DNA of 26,957 nt from a virus. How positions within the stretch are numbered: the stretch's first letter is position 1; each line of letters opens with the position of its first letter. This document shows positions 1 through 4,783 of this stretch, in pieces. The notes beneath the pieces are model-generated. The model did not search any database and had not been told where the DNA came from. It was given only the letters and a program-made list of their open reading frames with translations. The position numbers were made by a program, and so were the translations under genes. The DNA lies in IMG/VR virus record IMGVR_UViG_3300043409_000650, positions 1-26,957 of that record. One strand, given 5' to 3'.

Positions 1-348
1 ATCCGTATGTTTCCAGTTGCCTCCACACTGGGAGTTGCTGAAGGCATTGAAACATCACTGTCCTGCTATCAGGTGTATGGAGTTAATACCTGGTCAGTAA
101 TCAACGCCGGATTTATGGAGAAGTTCCGGGTACCGGCAGGCGTCAAACATCTCATCATTTTTGCTGATATGGATAAACATTCTGCCACTGGACAGGCCGC
201 AGCGTTTAATTGTGCCACCGCCAATCTCAGAGCAAAAAACGATTTGATATCTGTCAGCGTACGCTGGCCCGATAACGGCGATTTTAATGATTTCGTGATG
301 AACGGCGACCAAGTTCGTGAGCAGGTTTATACAAAGAGGGCAGCATAG
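1..348 (+). CDS. Toprim-domain primase/helicase, C-terminal part (5' end outside window)
   Basis: The reading frame is open from the first base, so this is the 3' end of a longer gene; the methionine at position 7 is probably internal. The visible 113 residues look like the toprim half of a phage DNA primase of the P4-alpha/Toprim_3 type. They contain an AEGIETSLS motif with the metal-binding glutamate, followed about 40 residues later by the acidic FADMDKH motif. In this family the toprim fold supports primer synthesis at the phage origin, often fused to a helicase. Its stop codon overlaps the GTG start of the downstream Q gene (TAGTG), so the two are probably translationally coupled, as expected for the end of an early operon. 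Family assignment is fairly sure; the full architecture cannot be seen. Confidence 0.8.
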   Translation: MRMFPVASTLGVAEGIETSLSCYQVYGVNTWSVINAGFMEKFRVPAGVKHLIIFADMDKHSATGQAAAFNCATANLRAKNDLISVSVRWPDNGDFNDFVMNGDQVREQVYTKRAA

Positions 349-1112
349 TGAAATTAGAATCAGCAATGAAACAGTTCAGCGCTAAGAGCCAGATGATTAC
401 GGATTCACCCCGCGCTACCTCTTCCGACTCGCTTAAGGGGCCTGATCTGGCTGCTGCAATGGGAATGGTTGAGGCTCGGGCCGGTTTCGGTATGGCTGCA
501 TATCTTGGCAAGGTTGGCATCAGCAAAGAGGACCGGATCAGAACCGTCGAACAGCTTACCCAGTTTGCCATGAAGAATGCCCCGAAACATGTCGGCAAAG
601 TATCGGGCCGTCGAATGGCGCAATGCATGGTGATTCTGGCTAAATTTGCCTACGAGGAATACAGCAGTTCAGCGGCGGCCACCACTCCATGTAAACACTG
701 CAAGGGGAAGGGGCTAATTTACAGCATTCAAAAAGTGGTTAAACACCCTGGATGTGGTGAAAAAACGGATTCATGGGTTAAAGAAGAGCTGGTAGGTGAA
801 TTATGCAATCCTTGCAACGGAAAGGGGAAAATCTCCTATCGTTGCCGCTGTAATGGTACCGGTAAGGTGCGTGACCTTGAGAAATCCAAACGAATTGGCG
901 CACCAGTAGAGAAAGAGTGTGAACGCTGCTCAGGAATTGGATACAAACGGACACCCTCAACAACAGCTTACAGAGCGATTACAGCGTTGCTTCCTGAACT
1001 AACCCAATCATCTTGGTCGCGCAATTGGAAGCCATTCTATGCGTCGCTGGTGGCTAAATGTGACATTGAAGAGAGTTATGCAGAGGATGAGTTTCAGAGA
1101 ATTACACGATAG
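348..1112 (+). CDS. Q: Late-gene antitermination protein Q (zinc-finger type)
   Basis: This 254-residue protein matches the phage 82/PA-2 type of Q antiterminator rather than the shorter lambda Q. Q binds DNA at the late promoter, loads onto paused RNA polymerase and makes it ignore downstream terminators. The middle carries a DnaJ-like cysteine array: C115/C118 followed by KGKG, C153/C156 followed by NGKG, C166/C168 followed by NGTG, and C191/C194 followed by SGIG, which should bind zinc. The basic C-terminal part (about 200-254) is typical of the family. The chosen start is GTG at 348, overlapping the upstream stop and preceded by AGAGGG; an ATG at 366 is an alternative. The position at the end of the early operon, directly upstream of a pR'-like promoter and terminator, supports the call. 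Confidence 0.9.
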   Translation: MKLESAMKQFSAKSQMITDSPRATSSDSLKGPDLAAAMGMVEARAGFGMAAYLGKVGISKEDRIRTVEQLTQFAMKNAPKHVGKVSGRRMAQCMVILAKFAYEEYSSSAAATTPCKHCKGKGLIYSIQKVVKHPGCGEKTDSWVKEELVGELCNPCNGKGKISYRCRCNGTGKVRDLEKSKRIGAPVEKECERCSGIGYKRTPSTTAYRAITALLPELTQSSWSRNWKPFYASLVAKCDIEESYAEDEFQRITR

Positions 1113-1350: not shown

Positions 1351-1428
1351 CCGCCACTAGCTCAGCTGGATAGAGCCGATAACCATTATTGTTGTAGGTG
1401 CGAGGTTCGAGACCTCGGTGGCGGGCCA
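1351..1428 (+). tRNA. tRNA-like gene with irregular anticodon arm (possibly degenerate)
   Basis: The acceptor stem CCGCCAC/GTGGCGG is perfect and followed by G and an encoded CCA. The D arm (GCTC/GAGC) and T arm (CGAGG, loop TTCGAGA, CCTCG) are canonical. The stretch between D and T stems is 24 nt, one longer than the usual 23 of class I tRNAs. The best anticodon stem is ATAAC (1379-1383) with GTTGT (1391-1395), giving loop CATTATT. That puts A rather than the near-universal U at position 33 and TTA at 34-36, formally a reader of the UAA stop codon. One base of slippage would give ATT instead. Lambdoid phages often carry tRNAs between Q and lysis genes. The overall fold is convincing; function and identity are not. 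Confidence 0.6.
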
Positions 1429-2395: not shown

Positions 2396-2426
2396 AAAGG
2401 CTCATTTCGGTAGGCCTTTCCGTTTC
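2394..2426. repeat. Terminator-like repeat, left copy
   Basis: AAAGGC (2396-2401) pairs with GCCTTT (2414-2419), a weak terminator-like hairpin usable on either strand. The segment matches 3186-3219 at 22 of the first 26 bases. The two copies bracket the opposite-strand gene at 2578-3081, so they may mark the edges of an inserted cassette. Confidence 0.5.
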
Positions 2427-2438
2427 TGTGAGGGCGTA

Positions 2439-2729
2439 ATGAAGATTTACTCAAGTCACTTTCACCCGAATGGTTTATTCATTAATTGTGAAGCGCAGGA
2501 AGGTTTTTGGGTATTACTGAGCATTTCTGTTGGGTGGGGGCGTTTCACTATGATTCGCCCCGATCAAGAGTTCAGTGCTACTGGAGGGCTTTTTCAATTG
2601 ACTGAATTACGGCCAGCGGATTCAGAGCGGCCGGAGTCAGTAGTTGAAGGGTCAAATGTTTTATGGCGTCTGCCGGAAGCTCTCGAAGTTTTGAAATCAG
2701 TCCAGACTTCTTCTCTTCAGGAAGGTTAG
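2439..2729 (+). CDS. Small hypothetical protein, possibly truncated
   Basis: An ATG at 2439 follows GAGGG at a good distance and opens a 96-codon frame. The first half reads like a real small protein, with aromatic and hydrophobic segments (EGFWVLLSISVGWGRF). The second half, from about 2578, lies opposite the 3' end of the minus-strand gene and reads like an antisense shadow. One reading is that an original small late-leader gene lost its 3' end when the minus-strand gene arrived. A longer frame starts at 2373 but lacks a comparable ribosome site. I recognise no family. Confidence 0.3.
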   Translation: MKIYSSHFHPNGLFINCEAQEGFWVLLSISVGWGRFTMIRPDQEFSATGGLFQLTELRPADSERPESVVEGSNVLWRLPEALEVLKSVQTSSLQEG

Positions 2730-3081
2730 CCACTCGAATGATGTCTTCCAGCGCAATGATTGTACTGTCGTGAAATTTCACGGTCTGAACATTCAGGATT
2801 GCACCAAGGCCACCATCATTCCGAATAAAATCAATTCCCCTATGTGTTATTTTTATCTGGTTAAGATTGATAATGTAATCATCCATGCCAAACTTTATAC
2901 CATTAGTGATGAGTCCATGCCCTTCAAGATAAATTAGGTTGGATGCAAAACTATCTTCACTACCGAATAATTGGCAAAAGTTATCGTATTCTTCTCGGCT
3001 AATTTCAAATGGCGCAGCATCATATAGCGCTTGTAACAACTGGCGCTGGTACTCCCTGCTATATTTGTCTATGTCTGACAT
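2578..3081 (-). CDS. Opposite-strand accessory protein with predicted winged-helix N-terminus (moron)
   Basis: This 167-residue protein is the only complete gene on the minus strand here. It starts at an ATG preceded by AAGGA at 7 bases. Residues about 10-85 look like a winged helix: helices, then SNLIYLEGHGLI and a strand-rich wing. A conserved-looking ITHRGIDFIRNDGGLGAIL (78-96) and a helical C-terminus containing LPADAIKHLTLQLL follow. I recall similar unnamed proteins near the lysis region of enteric prophages, none with a known function. Lying antisense inside the late leader, it must have its own promoter and could be expressed in the lysogen, as morons are. A regulatory, exclusion or defence role is possible but unproven. 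No aca-like gene is adjacent, so an anti-CRISPR call has no support. Confidence 0.8.
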   Translation of the reverse strand: MSDIDKYSREYQRQLLQALYDAAPFEISREEYDNFCQLFGSEDSFASNLIYLEGHGLITNGIKFGMDDYIINLNQIKITHRGIDFIRNDGGLGAILNVQTVKFHDSTIIALEDIIRVANLPEEKKSGLISKLRELPADAIKHLTLQLLTPAALNPLAVIQSIEKALQ

Positions 3082-3185
3082 GGTAATTCCTTCTTGGCTG
3101 TGTGAGAACTATCCAAGATACCACTACTGTCTAATGCGGATAAAGAACAGGCAGCGTTGCAAGTCAGTAATACTAACGCATAAAT

Positions 3186-3219
3186 TTTAAGGCTCACTTC
3201 GGTGGGCTTTTTTCATTTC
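3186..3219 (+). terminator. Intrinsic terminator, right copy of the flanking repeat
   Basis: GCTCAC (3192-3197) and GTGGGC (3202-3207) form a stem capped by a TTCG tetraloop and followed by six Ts. It sits just upstream of the lysis cassette and is another obstacle that Q-modified polymerase must pass. It is also the better-preserved partner of the repeat at 2394-2426. Confidence 0.75.
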
Positions 3220-3261: not shown

Positions 3262-3873
3262 ATGGAAAACCAAAATAACCCACAGGGAAAACTTGAGAGT
3301 GCTGCGTGGTTAATTCGATGGGTAGATAGCTGGAAGAAGCTGGCGATTTTGATTGTGCTGACATTGTTTAGCATTGCGAGTTATTTGGCATATGACTACC
3401 GGCGAGAGATTACCTATTGGGCGCTGGCCCATTACGGCACCCCACGCATTGACCAGACAAAAATCGATGCTGAAGTACGCAGCATGATGAGCGATACCGG
3501 TGGCGTGACAGTTTCCGTCTGGAGCTTGAACCTACAGCGTAACCAGCGCATCGCTTTATACGTTCGCATTAGAGAGCAACGATTATCGAATCTGGAAGGG
3601 GTGGGAGATTTAATTTTCCGGCCTCACTCAAAACTATCAATGGCAGTTATCGACCTCCTGGATAAAAAGACGGTGTGCTACGACCTTGTGCAGTCTACGG
3701 CGATTGGCCGGGCGGCATGGGCTGCGGGTGCCACATACGTTTGCTCTGCTGCCGTCCCCCCGCAACACGGTTCAATGATAGGGCTTATTGCTGTTGGCTT
3801 CACTGAGAGGCCAGAGAATGAAGATTACGTTCGTCAGCGAATACTGCTGGCATCTGAGAGGATCATTAAATGA
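3262..3873 (+). CDS. Holin, phage T4 T-like (class III)
   Basis: The 203-residue product has one hydrophobic segment near the N-terminus (about 27-45) and a large hydrophilic C-terminal domain predicted to face the periplasm. This architecture and length match T4 holin T (218 residues, one N-terminal membrane segment). The C-terminal pattern ending in helix LLASERIIK also resembles T4 T, and there are two periplasmic cysteines (C139, C161), as T has a periplasmic disulfide. A holin opens the inner membrane to trigger lysis. The ATG at 3262 was chosen because the longer frame from 3202 would start inside the terminator; its ribosome site is weak. The stop overlaps the endolysin start (ATGA), and the lysis-cassette context is strong. 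Confidence 0.7.
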   Translation: MENQNNPQGKLESAAWLIRWVDSWKKLAILIVLTLFSIASYLAYDYRREITYWALAHYGTPRIDQTKIDAEVRSMMSDTGGVTVSVWSLNLQRNQRIALYVRIREQRLSNLEGVGDLIFRPHSKLSMAVIDLLDKKTVCYDLVQSTAIGRAAWAAGATYVCSAAVPPQHGSMIGLIAVGFTERPENEDYVRQRILLASERIIK

Positions 3874-4265
3874 CGACTAATTTTAGATTTAGCCAGCGCA
3901 GTGAGAATAACCTCAAGAGCGTTAACGCTAACCTGGTGAAAGTGGTGCGCCGTGCTCTGGAGCTATCGACCGTTGATTTCGGTGTTATCGAAGGTGTCCG
4001 TACGGTAGAACGGCAAAAAGAGCTGGTGGCCACTGGCAAGAGCCAGACCATGAATAGCCGTCATATCTCCGGCAATGCGGTTGACCTGCTCCCCACGGGT
4101 GCCGACTGGAATGATTATAAATGCTGGTTGCCGGTATTGGATGCCATGCACCGTGCCGGTAAAGAGTTGGGCGTTAAGCTGCGTTTCGGTATCACCTGGA
4201 CGGATAACCCAAATGACAAGCCAGCGAAGTTCTTGGACGGTCCGCATGTGGAAATACCCGCATGA
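3870..4265 (+). CDS. Endolysin, L-alanyl-D-glutamate peptidase (M15/VanY-like)
   Basis: This 131-residue protein has the zinc-peptidase motifs of the T5-type endolysins. The SRHISGNAVDL motif supplies zinc ligands H65 and D72, and DGPHVEI near the C-terminus supplies H126 as the third ligand. R44 in the GVRT motif fits substrate binding. Enzymes of this family cut the L-Ala-D-Glu bond in peptidoglycan stem peptides. No signal peptide is present, so it should depend on the holin for export. The start ATG at 3870 overlaps the holin stop and its own stop overlaps the Rz start, so lysis genes are tightly coupled. The length matches the family. Confidence 0.93.
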   Translation: MTTNFRFSQRSENNLKSVNANLVKVVRRALELSTVDFGVIEGVRTVERQKELVATGKSQTMNSRHISGNAVDLLPTGADWNDYKCWLPVLDAMHRAGKELGVKLRFGITWTDNPNDKPAKFLDGPHVEIPA

Positions 4266-4783
4266 AAGAAACCCTATTGAGATTGATAGCCGTCGCACTG
4301 ACGATTTCAGTTTTAGTCGGCGGCGGGTATTGGTGGGGCAGTGATAGTAAAAACTCGGAATGGTCTCTCAAGTGGACTAAGCGCGATAAATCAGACCTAA
4401 CGGCAGAAATAGCCGCCAAAAAAAGTGCTGCCGAAAAAGAGGCTCAACTTCAGGCTGCACAATCGGCCGGATTAAAGGCATATCAACAAGGGGTAGTCGA
4501 TGCTGAGAACAAAGCAAAAGGCACTATTGCTGCTTACCATGCTGGCCATATCAGGTTGCAAAAGCGCTTCGAGTGTCTCGCCGCTTCAGTTGGGGATATG
4601 CCCGTTACTCCCGCCAGTGGACAGCTCACTGATGCAGCCAGAGATTGCGGATTTTCAGACGCAGATGTCGGAATTCTTATTTCAATCGCTGAACGAGCCG
4701 ACAAGTTAGTCGAGAAGGTCACCGCGCTACAAAAGGTTGTCACTGACGACCGGTTAATAATCAACAGCACTACACATCAATAG
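4262..4783 (+). CDS. Rz: Rz-like inner-membrane spanin
   Basis: The 173-residue protein has an N-terminal membrane anchor (LLRLIAVALTISVLVGGGYW, about residues 5-24). A long alanine- and lysine-rich helical region with coiled-coil character follows (about 45-110), then a periplasmic C-terminus. This is the i-spanin plan: it pairs with outer-membrane Rz1 and fuses the two membranes in the last step of lysis. The start overlaps the endolysin stop (ATGA). An Rz1 frame is embedded within it, which confirms the identity better than sequence similarity, since spanins diverge quickly. Confidence 0.9.
   Translation: MKETLLRLIAVALTISVLVGGGYWWGSDSKNSEWSLKWTKRDKSDLTAEIAAKKSAAEKEAQLQAAQSAGLKAYQQGVVDAENKAKGTIAAYHAGHIRLQKRFECLAASVGDMPVTPASGQLTDAARDCGFSDADVGILISIAERADKLVEKVTALQKVVTDDRLIINSTTHQ
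4500..4709 (+). CDS. Rz1: Rz1-like outer-membrane spanin lipoprotein, embedded in Rz
   Basis: This 69-codon frame lies wholly inside Rz in the +1 frame. It begins with a charged start and hydrophobic core (KALLLLTMLA) and ends its signal with the lipobox ISGC, putting the lipidated cysteine at residue 20. The mature part is about 50 residues and proline-containing, as in known o-spanins. A GGGG-containing ribosome site precedes the ATG. The protein should be lipid-anchored in the outer membrane and bind the Rz C-terminus across the periplasm. Full embedding is the lambda arrangement. Confidence 0.88.
   Translation: MLRTKQKALLLLTMLAISGCKSASSVSPLQLGICPLLPPVDSSLMQPEIADFQTQMSEFLFQSLNEPTS

Follow-up and report, generated by a model that had tools for sequence, protein, structure and literature searches.

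Two conserved overlapping genes on opposite strands, one of them unannotated, in phages and prophages

Long antisense-coding gene pairs in bacteria and phages are few and disputed (PMC9927249). The closest described system is Tha/Ith of Staphylococcus aureus. There, the defence protein Tha is expressed in the lysogen and inhibited by the product of ith, a small antisense gene that overlaps with it and whose expression rises on induction; Tha carries a HEPN domain and is encoded in the cI operon, and ith is transcribed from a constitutive promoter of its own (PMC11087260). Other temperate phages offer related arrangements. The olg1/gene 10 pair of Pseudomonas phage Fc02 lies at the lysis-lysogeny control region and both of its products exclude phages (PMC9936078), an antisense RNA of phage BTP1, STnc6030, is reported to bring about the exclusion of superinfecting relatives (PMC7067206), and the SieB/Esc/sas system of phage P22 yields an exclusion protein and its inhibitor from the same locus, together with an antisense RNA (PMC12197685).

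Here we describe two overlapping genes, A and B, on opposite strands of a viral sequence 26,957 nt long, the whole of which we refer to as the window. Our main result is that the two form a conserved pair in which both strands code, and that B lacks annotation in the records inspected. Like Tha/Ith, it joins a prophage protein to a small overlapping antisense gene, but its coding overlap is ~150 nt long and the cassette is located in the late region between Q and the lysis genes rather than in the cI operon. No HEPN domain was matched in A or B in Pfam, NCBIfam or PADLOC. We therefore regard A/B as unrelated to Tha/Ith and not a member of that system, although by analogy the two would work alike. 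The Fc02 genes are, like A and B, opposed overlapping genes of a temperate phage, one made in the lysogen and one in the lytic programme, as we propose for A and B, and their position at the control region sets them apart from A/B. The P22 locus provides another likeness, in that an inhibitor is encoded at the locus of the exclusion protein, as would be the case here if B has the inhibitory role we propose. Unlike B, which is encoded on the strand opposite to A, Esc of P22 shares its gene and reading frame with SieB. Gene A itself is a member of phrog_3983, a library entry that has neither a description nor an antisense partner.

The two genes and their predicted products

Gene A is a well-formed open reading frame of 167 codons on the minus strand, with an ATG start preceded by AAGGA. 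It is placed between Q (phrog_127) and the lysis genes, antisense to the late genes; both its quality as a gene and its orientation are as the original prediction described them (Table 1). The reading frame is far beyond chance, with 63 relatives in IMG/VR and a full-length profile match to phrog_3983 that covers residues 5-167 (E=2.8e-52). No Pfam, NCBIfam or PADLOC family was found above cut-off, and the absence of a match to any PADLOC model means that A did not resemble a known defence protein by this measure.

The original prediction also called A a winged-helix protein. The AlphaFold model agrees, with a confident winged helix over residues 9-86 (helices 9-22, 29-39, and 42-54 plus the wing, with pLDDT mostly >90 there) followed by four less certain helices, whereas matches in a Foldseek search of the PDB are weak (best E=0.04, VanR), with MarR/PadR-type regulators ranked best and none of them significant. 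PDB sequence matches of A to protein A domains were rejected as helix-bundle look-alikes of a short helical fragment, because for the top entries no single stretch passes the threshold. Mean pairwise amino acid identity is 40% over residues 5-77, 73% in the core, and 71% in the tail. This pattern suggests that the variable winged helix may be the recognising part of the protein and that the conserved core and tail may be the acting part.

The picture of a single moron gene did not hold, as the locus is a dual-coding antisense pair. A plus-strand reading frame that starts at 2439 encodes a protein also found antisense to A in many relatives (tblastn); we name this gene B. In the window, A and B have 152 bp in common, stop codons included. 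The consensus of B is FHPNGFFIxADxQxDFWVxLSxxxGWGRFxxIRPxxEFSxxGGLFQLxELRPADSEPPESVxEGSNVLWRLPEALEVLKS, and its model (pLDDT 80, pTM 0.72) combines a sheet of five strands with a helix at the C-terminus. B has no match in PHROGs, Pfam or NCBIfam, and Foldseek returned nothing below E=0.1 in the PDB and BFVD. It is also without annotation in all annotated records inspected, which comprise RefSeq E. coli and the phages GF-2 and PhiR49_2; the PhiR49_2 version has copies in 27 of the 5426 genomes of an E. coli collection. B is probably missing because long antisense overlaps are dropped by annotation.

Table 1. Positions of the A/B cassette and of its neighbours in the window
Feature	Position	Strand	Remarks
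Q-like antiterminator, upstream	348..1112	+	phrog_127, E=5.7e-91
Accessory segment	2181..3185		~1 kb here; 64 unrelated nt in L071; other gene in L072
Hairpin before the ribosome site of B (left terminator of the original prediction)	2396..2419	+	matches position of relatives' terminators
Shine-Dalgarno GAGGG of gene B	2430..2434	+	from sequence
Gene B	2439..2729	+	96 aa, ATG; unannotated, conserved; predicted five-strand sheet and C-terminal helix
Dual-coding stretch, last 50 codons of A vs second half of B	2578..2729		first codon positions face each other
Gene A	2578..3081	-	167 aa; phrog_3983; predicted winged-helix N-terminal half, helical C-terminal half
Conserved core of A, residues 79-117, ITxxGIDFxxDDGGLxAILxVQTVKxHxxT	2731..2847	-	outside overlap with B
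Winged-helix part of A, residues 9-86	2824..3057	-	predicted fold; variable part of family
Shine-Dalgarno AAGGA of gene A	3088..3092	-	from sequence
Intrinsic terminator, right edge of accessory slot	3189..3210	+	kept in L071 and L072, without cassette
Downstream genes: phrog_31287 protein, endolysin, Rz-like spanin	3262..4783	+	family matches

Selection on both reading frames and conservation of the pair

Selection acts on both reading frames of A/B. Divergence at A-synonymous sites is 0.91 per site outside the overlap and 0.29 inside it (permutation p=1e-4), and the changes suppressed within the overlap are those silent for A yet not for B. Near the end of A, changes silent for B exceed those that alter both proteins (0.40 vs 0.15). 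A genes with an alternative tail, which lack B and serve as a negative control, exhibit little drop, from 0.95 in the core to 0.78 in the tail. The region that codes for A only has typical codon-position bias, and in the non-overlapping half of B the pN/pS ratio is 0.28, with 56% of changes at third codon positions. In this half of B, neither of the remaining frames on the same strand is ever open, and those in antisense are closed in 24-27 of 29 sequences.

When A is randomly recoded with synonymous codons, just 0.4-1.2% of the resulting sequences leave the B frame open over 49 codons, and an SD-like tetramer is present at the B start in 22 of 25 non-redundant relatives, compared with a background of 16%. 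Moreover, a profile built from just the half of B that lies outside the overlap, searched against 3331 ORFs, recovers an antisense B in Photorhabdus (E=1.7e-22) and, within the same set, in Noviherbaspirillum (7.7e-8), Desulfovibrionaceae (1.1e-7), and Xenorhabdus (4.5e-7). We put the probability that A and B form a conserved antisense dual-coding pair at about 0.95.

Most of the loci that we fetched from phages and prophages, ranging from Enterobacterales to Acinetobacter, Noviherbaspirillum, and Desulfovibrionaceae, have B opposite A. Of 66 A loci, 61 have B in the same relative frame, as 39 distinct proteins, mostly beginning 45-47 codons beyond the stop of A and finishing 49-62 codons inside A. 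A search with the alignment of B gave 109 viral loci, of which 80 were kept; the B motif was located in 77 of these, and A is antisense to B in 74 of the 77. The locus of Acinetobacter pragensis (L173, 3923-5288) contains two A genes in tandem, each with a match to the B profile in antisense.

The accessory slot and its transcription signals

Two phages, L071 and L072, are near-identical to the window beside this site and lack the cassette, indicating that A/B occupies an accessory slot. Between flanks that are 94-98% identical, L071 has 64 unrelated nt in place of the 1,005 found in the window, while in L072 another gene fills the site right up to the same terminator. The G+C content of the segment, 0.42 compared with 0.49 for the whole window, also counts for insertion, and the cassette-free L071 has one terminator copy, not the two that would speak against it. 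In these respects the accessory insertion put forward by the original prediction is supported. An empty slot (L071) and an A/B pair (L108) occur ~14 kb apart on a single contig, IMGVR_UViG_2671180713_000005.

The proposed route of insertion, recombination between near-duplicate terminators, agrees with the sequence on one side only. The stretches at 2394-2426 and 3186-3219 do match at 22 of 26 positions, which is unexpected in shuffles, but the terminator scan calls the right one only; the left hairpin is less stable, at -6.8 kcal/mol compared with -10.3 kcal/mol, and lacks a T run. On the right, L071 becomes homologous from 3186 onwards, as recombination there would predict, but the left limit of homology is at 2180, which is 214 nt short of the left hairpin. 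With this edge well before the hairpin, we rejected the two terminators as recombination sites for the left side.

Across loci, flanking coding sequence mostly runs with B (174,359 residues, vs 27,168 in the direction of A). The upstream neighbours of B often match Q, primase or antirepressor families, and the downstream neighbours endolysin, HNH or terminase families. In the window, the phrog_31287 protein (3262-3873, plus strand) is in the holin position and looks membrane-anchored; only four IMG/VR relatives of it were found. Following Q, a tRNA-like gene (1351-1428, plus strand) was called with the stop anticodon UUA, and its body matches the tRNAs of relatives. We rejected it as an ochre suppressor, its anticodon loop being without U33 and its anticodon arm unlike those of the relatives' Arg, Leu, and Phe tRNAs; given the absence of U33, it is probably a decayed tRNA.

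Many group-1 relatives have an intrinsic terminator whose end is within ~20 nt of the B start, directly before the ribosome site, and in relatives terminators of other sequence stand in the place of the left hairpin. Because the hairpin before B is weak in the window, control by read-through is clearer in the relatives than here. The terminator at the right edge belongs to the late (plus) strand. No good promoter of A was found in the window, and no promoter of B's own is in sight.

An element, ACTGTnnnnTATCAGG, occurs ~70-90 nt upstream of A in ten loci (L002, L004, L037, L043, L046, L054, L055, L060, L118, and L159); it is found at a near-fixed distance before A in 15 of 83 distinct upstream regions, compared with a background of ~1%. 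The window has a similar sequence, CTGTTCTTTATC, upstream of A. This conserved element is a possible promoter or operator.

Possible roles of A and B

In the mechanism that we propose, A would be a prophage protein that targets either incoming phages or the transcription of host or phage, with the winged helix recognising and the core and tail acting or oligomerising. B would form part of the late transcript and, based on the terminator or hairpin directly before its ribosome site, we infer that its synthesis would require read-through by Q-modified polymerase, upon induction or lytic infection. The same transcript would cross A in antisense and shut it off, the B protein would counteract A during lytic growth, and the shared bases would stop recombination from separating the two genes. 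It appears somewhat more likely than not that the late phase silences A and activates B. We propose only tentatively that B antagonises a lysogen-expressed A, and the mechanism as a whole, a lysogen-acting A counteracted by a late read-through B, may hold at somewhat less than even odds. It is possible, if rather doubtful, that these loci represent a widespread proteobacterial phage cassette encoding a lysogeny exclusion protein and its late antidote on two strands, in which the late operon would both silence A and make the inhibitor.

The near-constant company of B and A, together with the absence of B from alternative-tail A genes, fits B as a modulator of A. Counted against the mechanism are the lack of a defence-model match for A, the lack of a clear A promoter, and the fact that the alternative-tail A genes manage without B. 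Further points against it are the few loci with an intact A in which B is broken or missing (L017, L023, and L156) and those in which B is kept although A is broken, truncated or replaced (L169, in which A is broken and B intact, L157, L163, and L068-L070).

B could instead be an ordinary late protein with its own job, whose antisense strand was overprinted by the frame of an unrelated accessory gene, A, such that the link between the two is one of space and not of function. We consider this doubtful, though far from negligible. B without A is restricted to three related loci of the 77 (L103, L105, and L112, the same loci as L068-L070), where another antisense gene (phrog_26342) takes the place of A and the B frame runs on into it. 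The retention of B opposite this unrelated gene argues against B acting only on A and favours an independent function; the replacement of A opposite a kept B looks like the use of a slot for antisense accessory genes. B also runs with the late genes. The alternative-tail A genes, also phrog_3983 members, could be taken to mean that the B-antisense tail was acquired; a separate, non-overlapping B was looked for beside them and not found. Against an independent B, however, the pair moves between quite different genome positions and is kept in distant phages, and B otherwise occurs only with A, although lone occurrence would be expected often.

If A and B worked as toxin and antitoxin, or as a similar addiction pair that maintains the prophage or the cassette, with the overlap preventing separation, this would explain why two small proteins are inseparably encoded and nearly always found together. 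We consider this unlikely, as a convergent layout and opposite expected timing are unusual for such pairs and no toxin family was matched. Moreover, A is intact while B is broken or missing in L017, L023, and L156, which indicates that B is not strictly required.

It is quite unlikely that the working element is an antisense RNA, with the A transcript pairing with the late transcript of superinfecting relatives. A is indeed antisense to the late transcript, and STnc6030 of phage BTP1 is a precedent for exclusion of this kind (PMC7067206), but the A protein is conserved far beyond the overlap, with typical codon-position bias and its most conserved region in the core, and the position of the cassette differs between phages. 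That B is untranslated, the low variation of the overlap reflecting a DNA or RNA element, is very improbable: the frame of the predicted B protein is under constraint outside the overlap, its SD motifs, length, and start are conserved, and its non-overlapping half suffices to detect it in distant groups.

The A/B pair is recognisable across several bacterial groups and carries clear two-frame selection. B adds a protein family that is found neither in the libraries we searched (PHROG, Pfam, and NCBIfam) nor among the annotations of the records inspected. With a built-in control in the alternative-tail A genes that lack B, cassette-free neighbours, and a partner swap, the pair is directly testable. 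If it is true that B switches A off, A/B would be a Gram-negative counterpart of the Tha/Ith answer to prophage autoimmunity.
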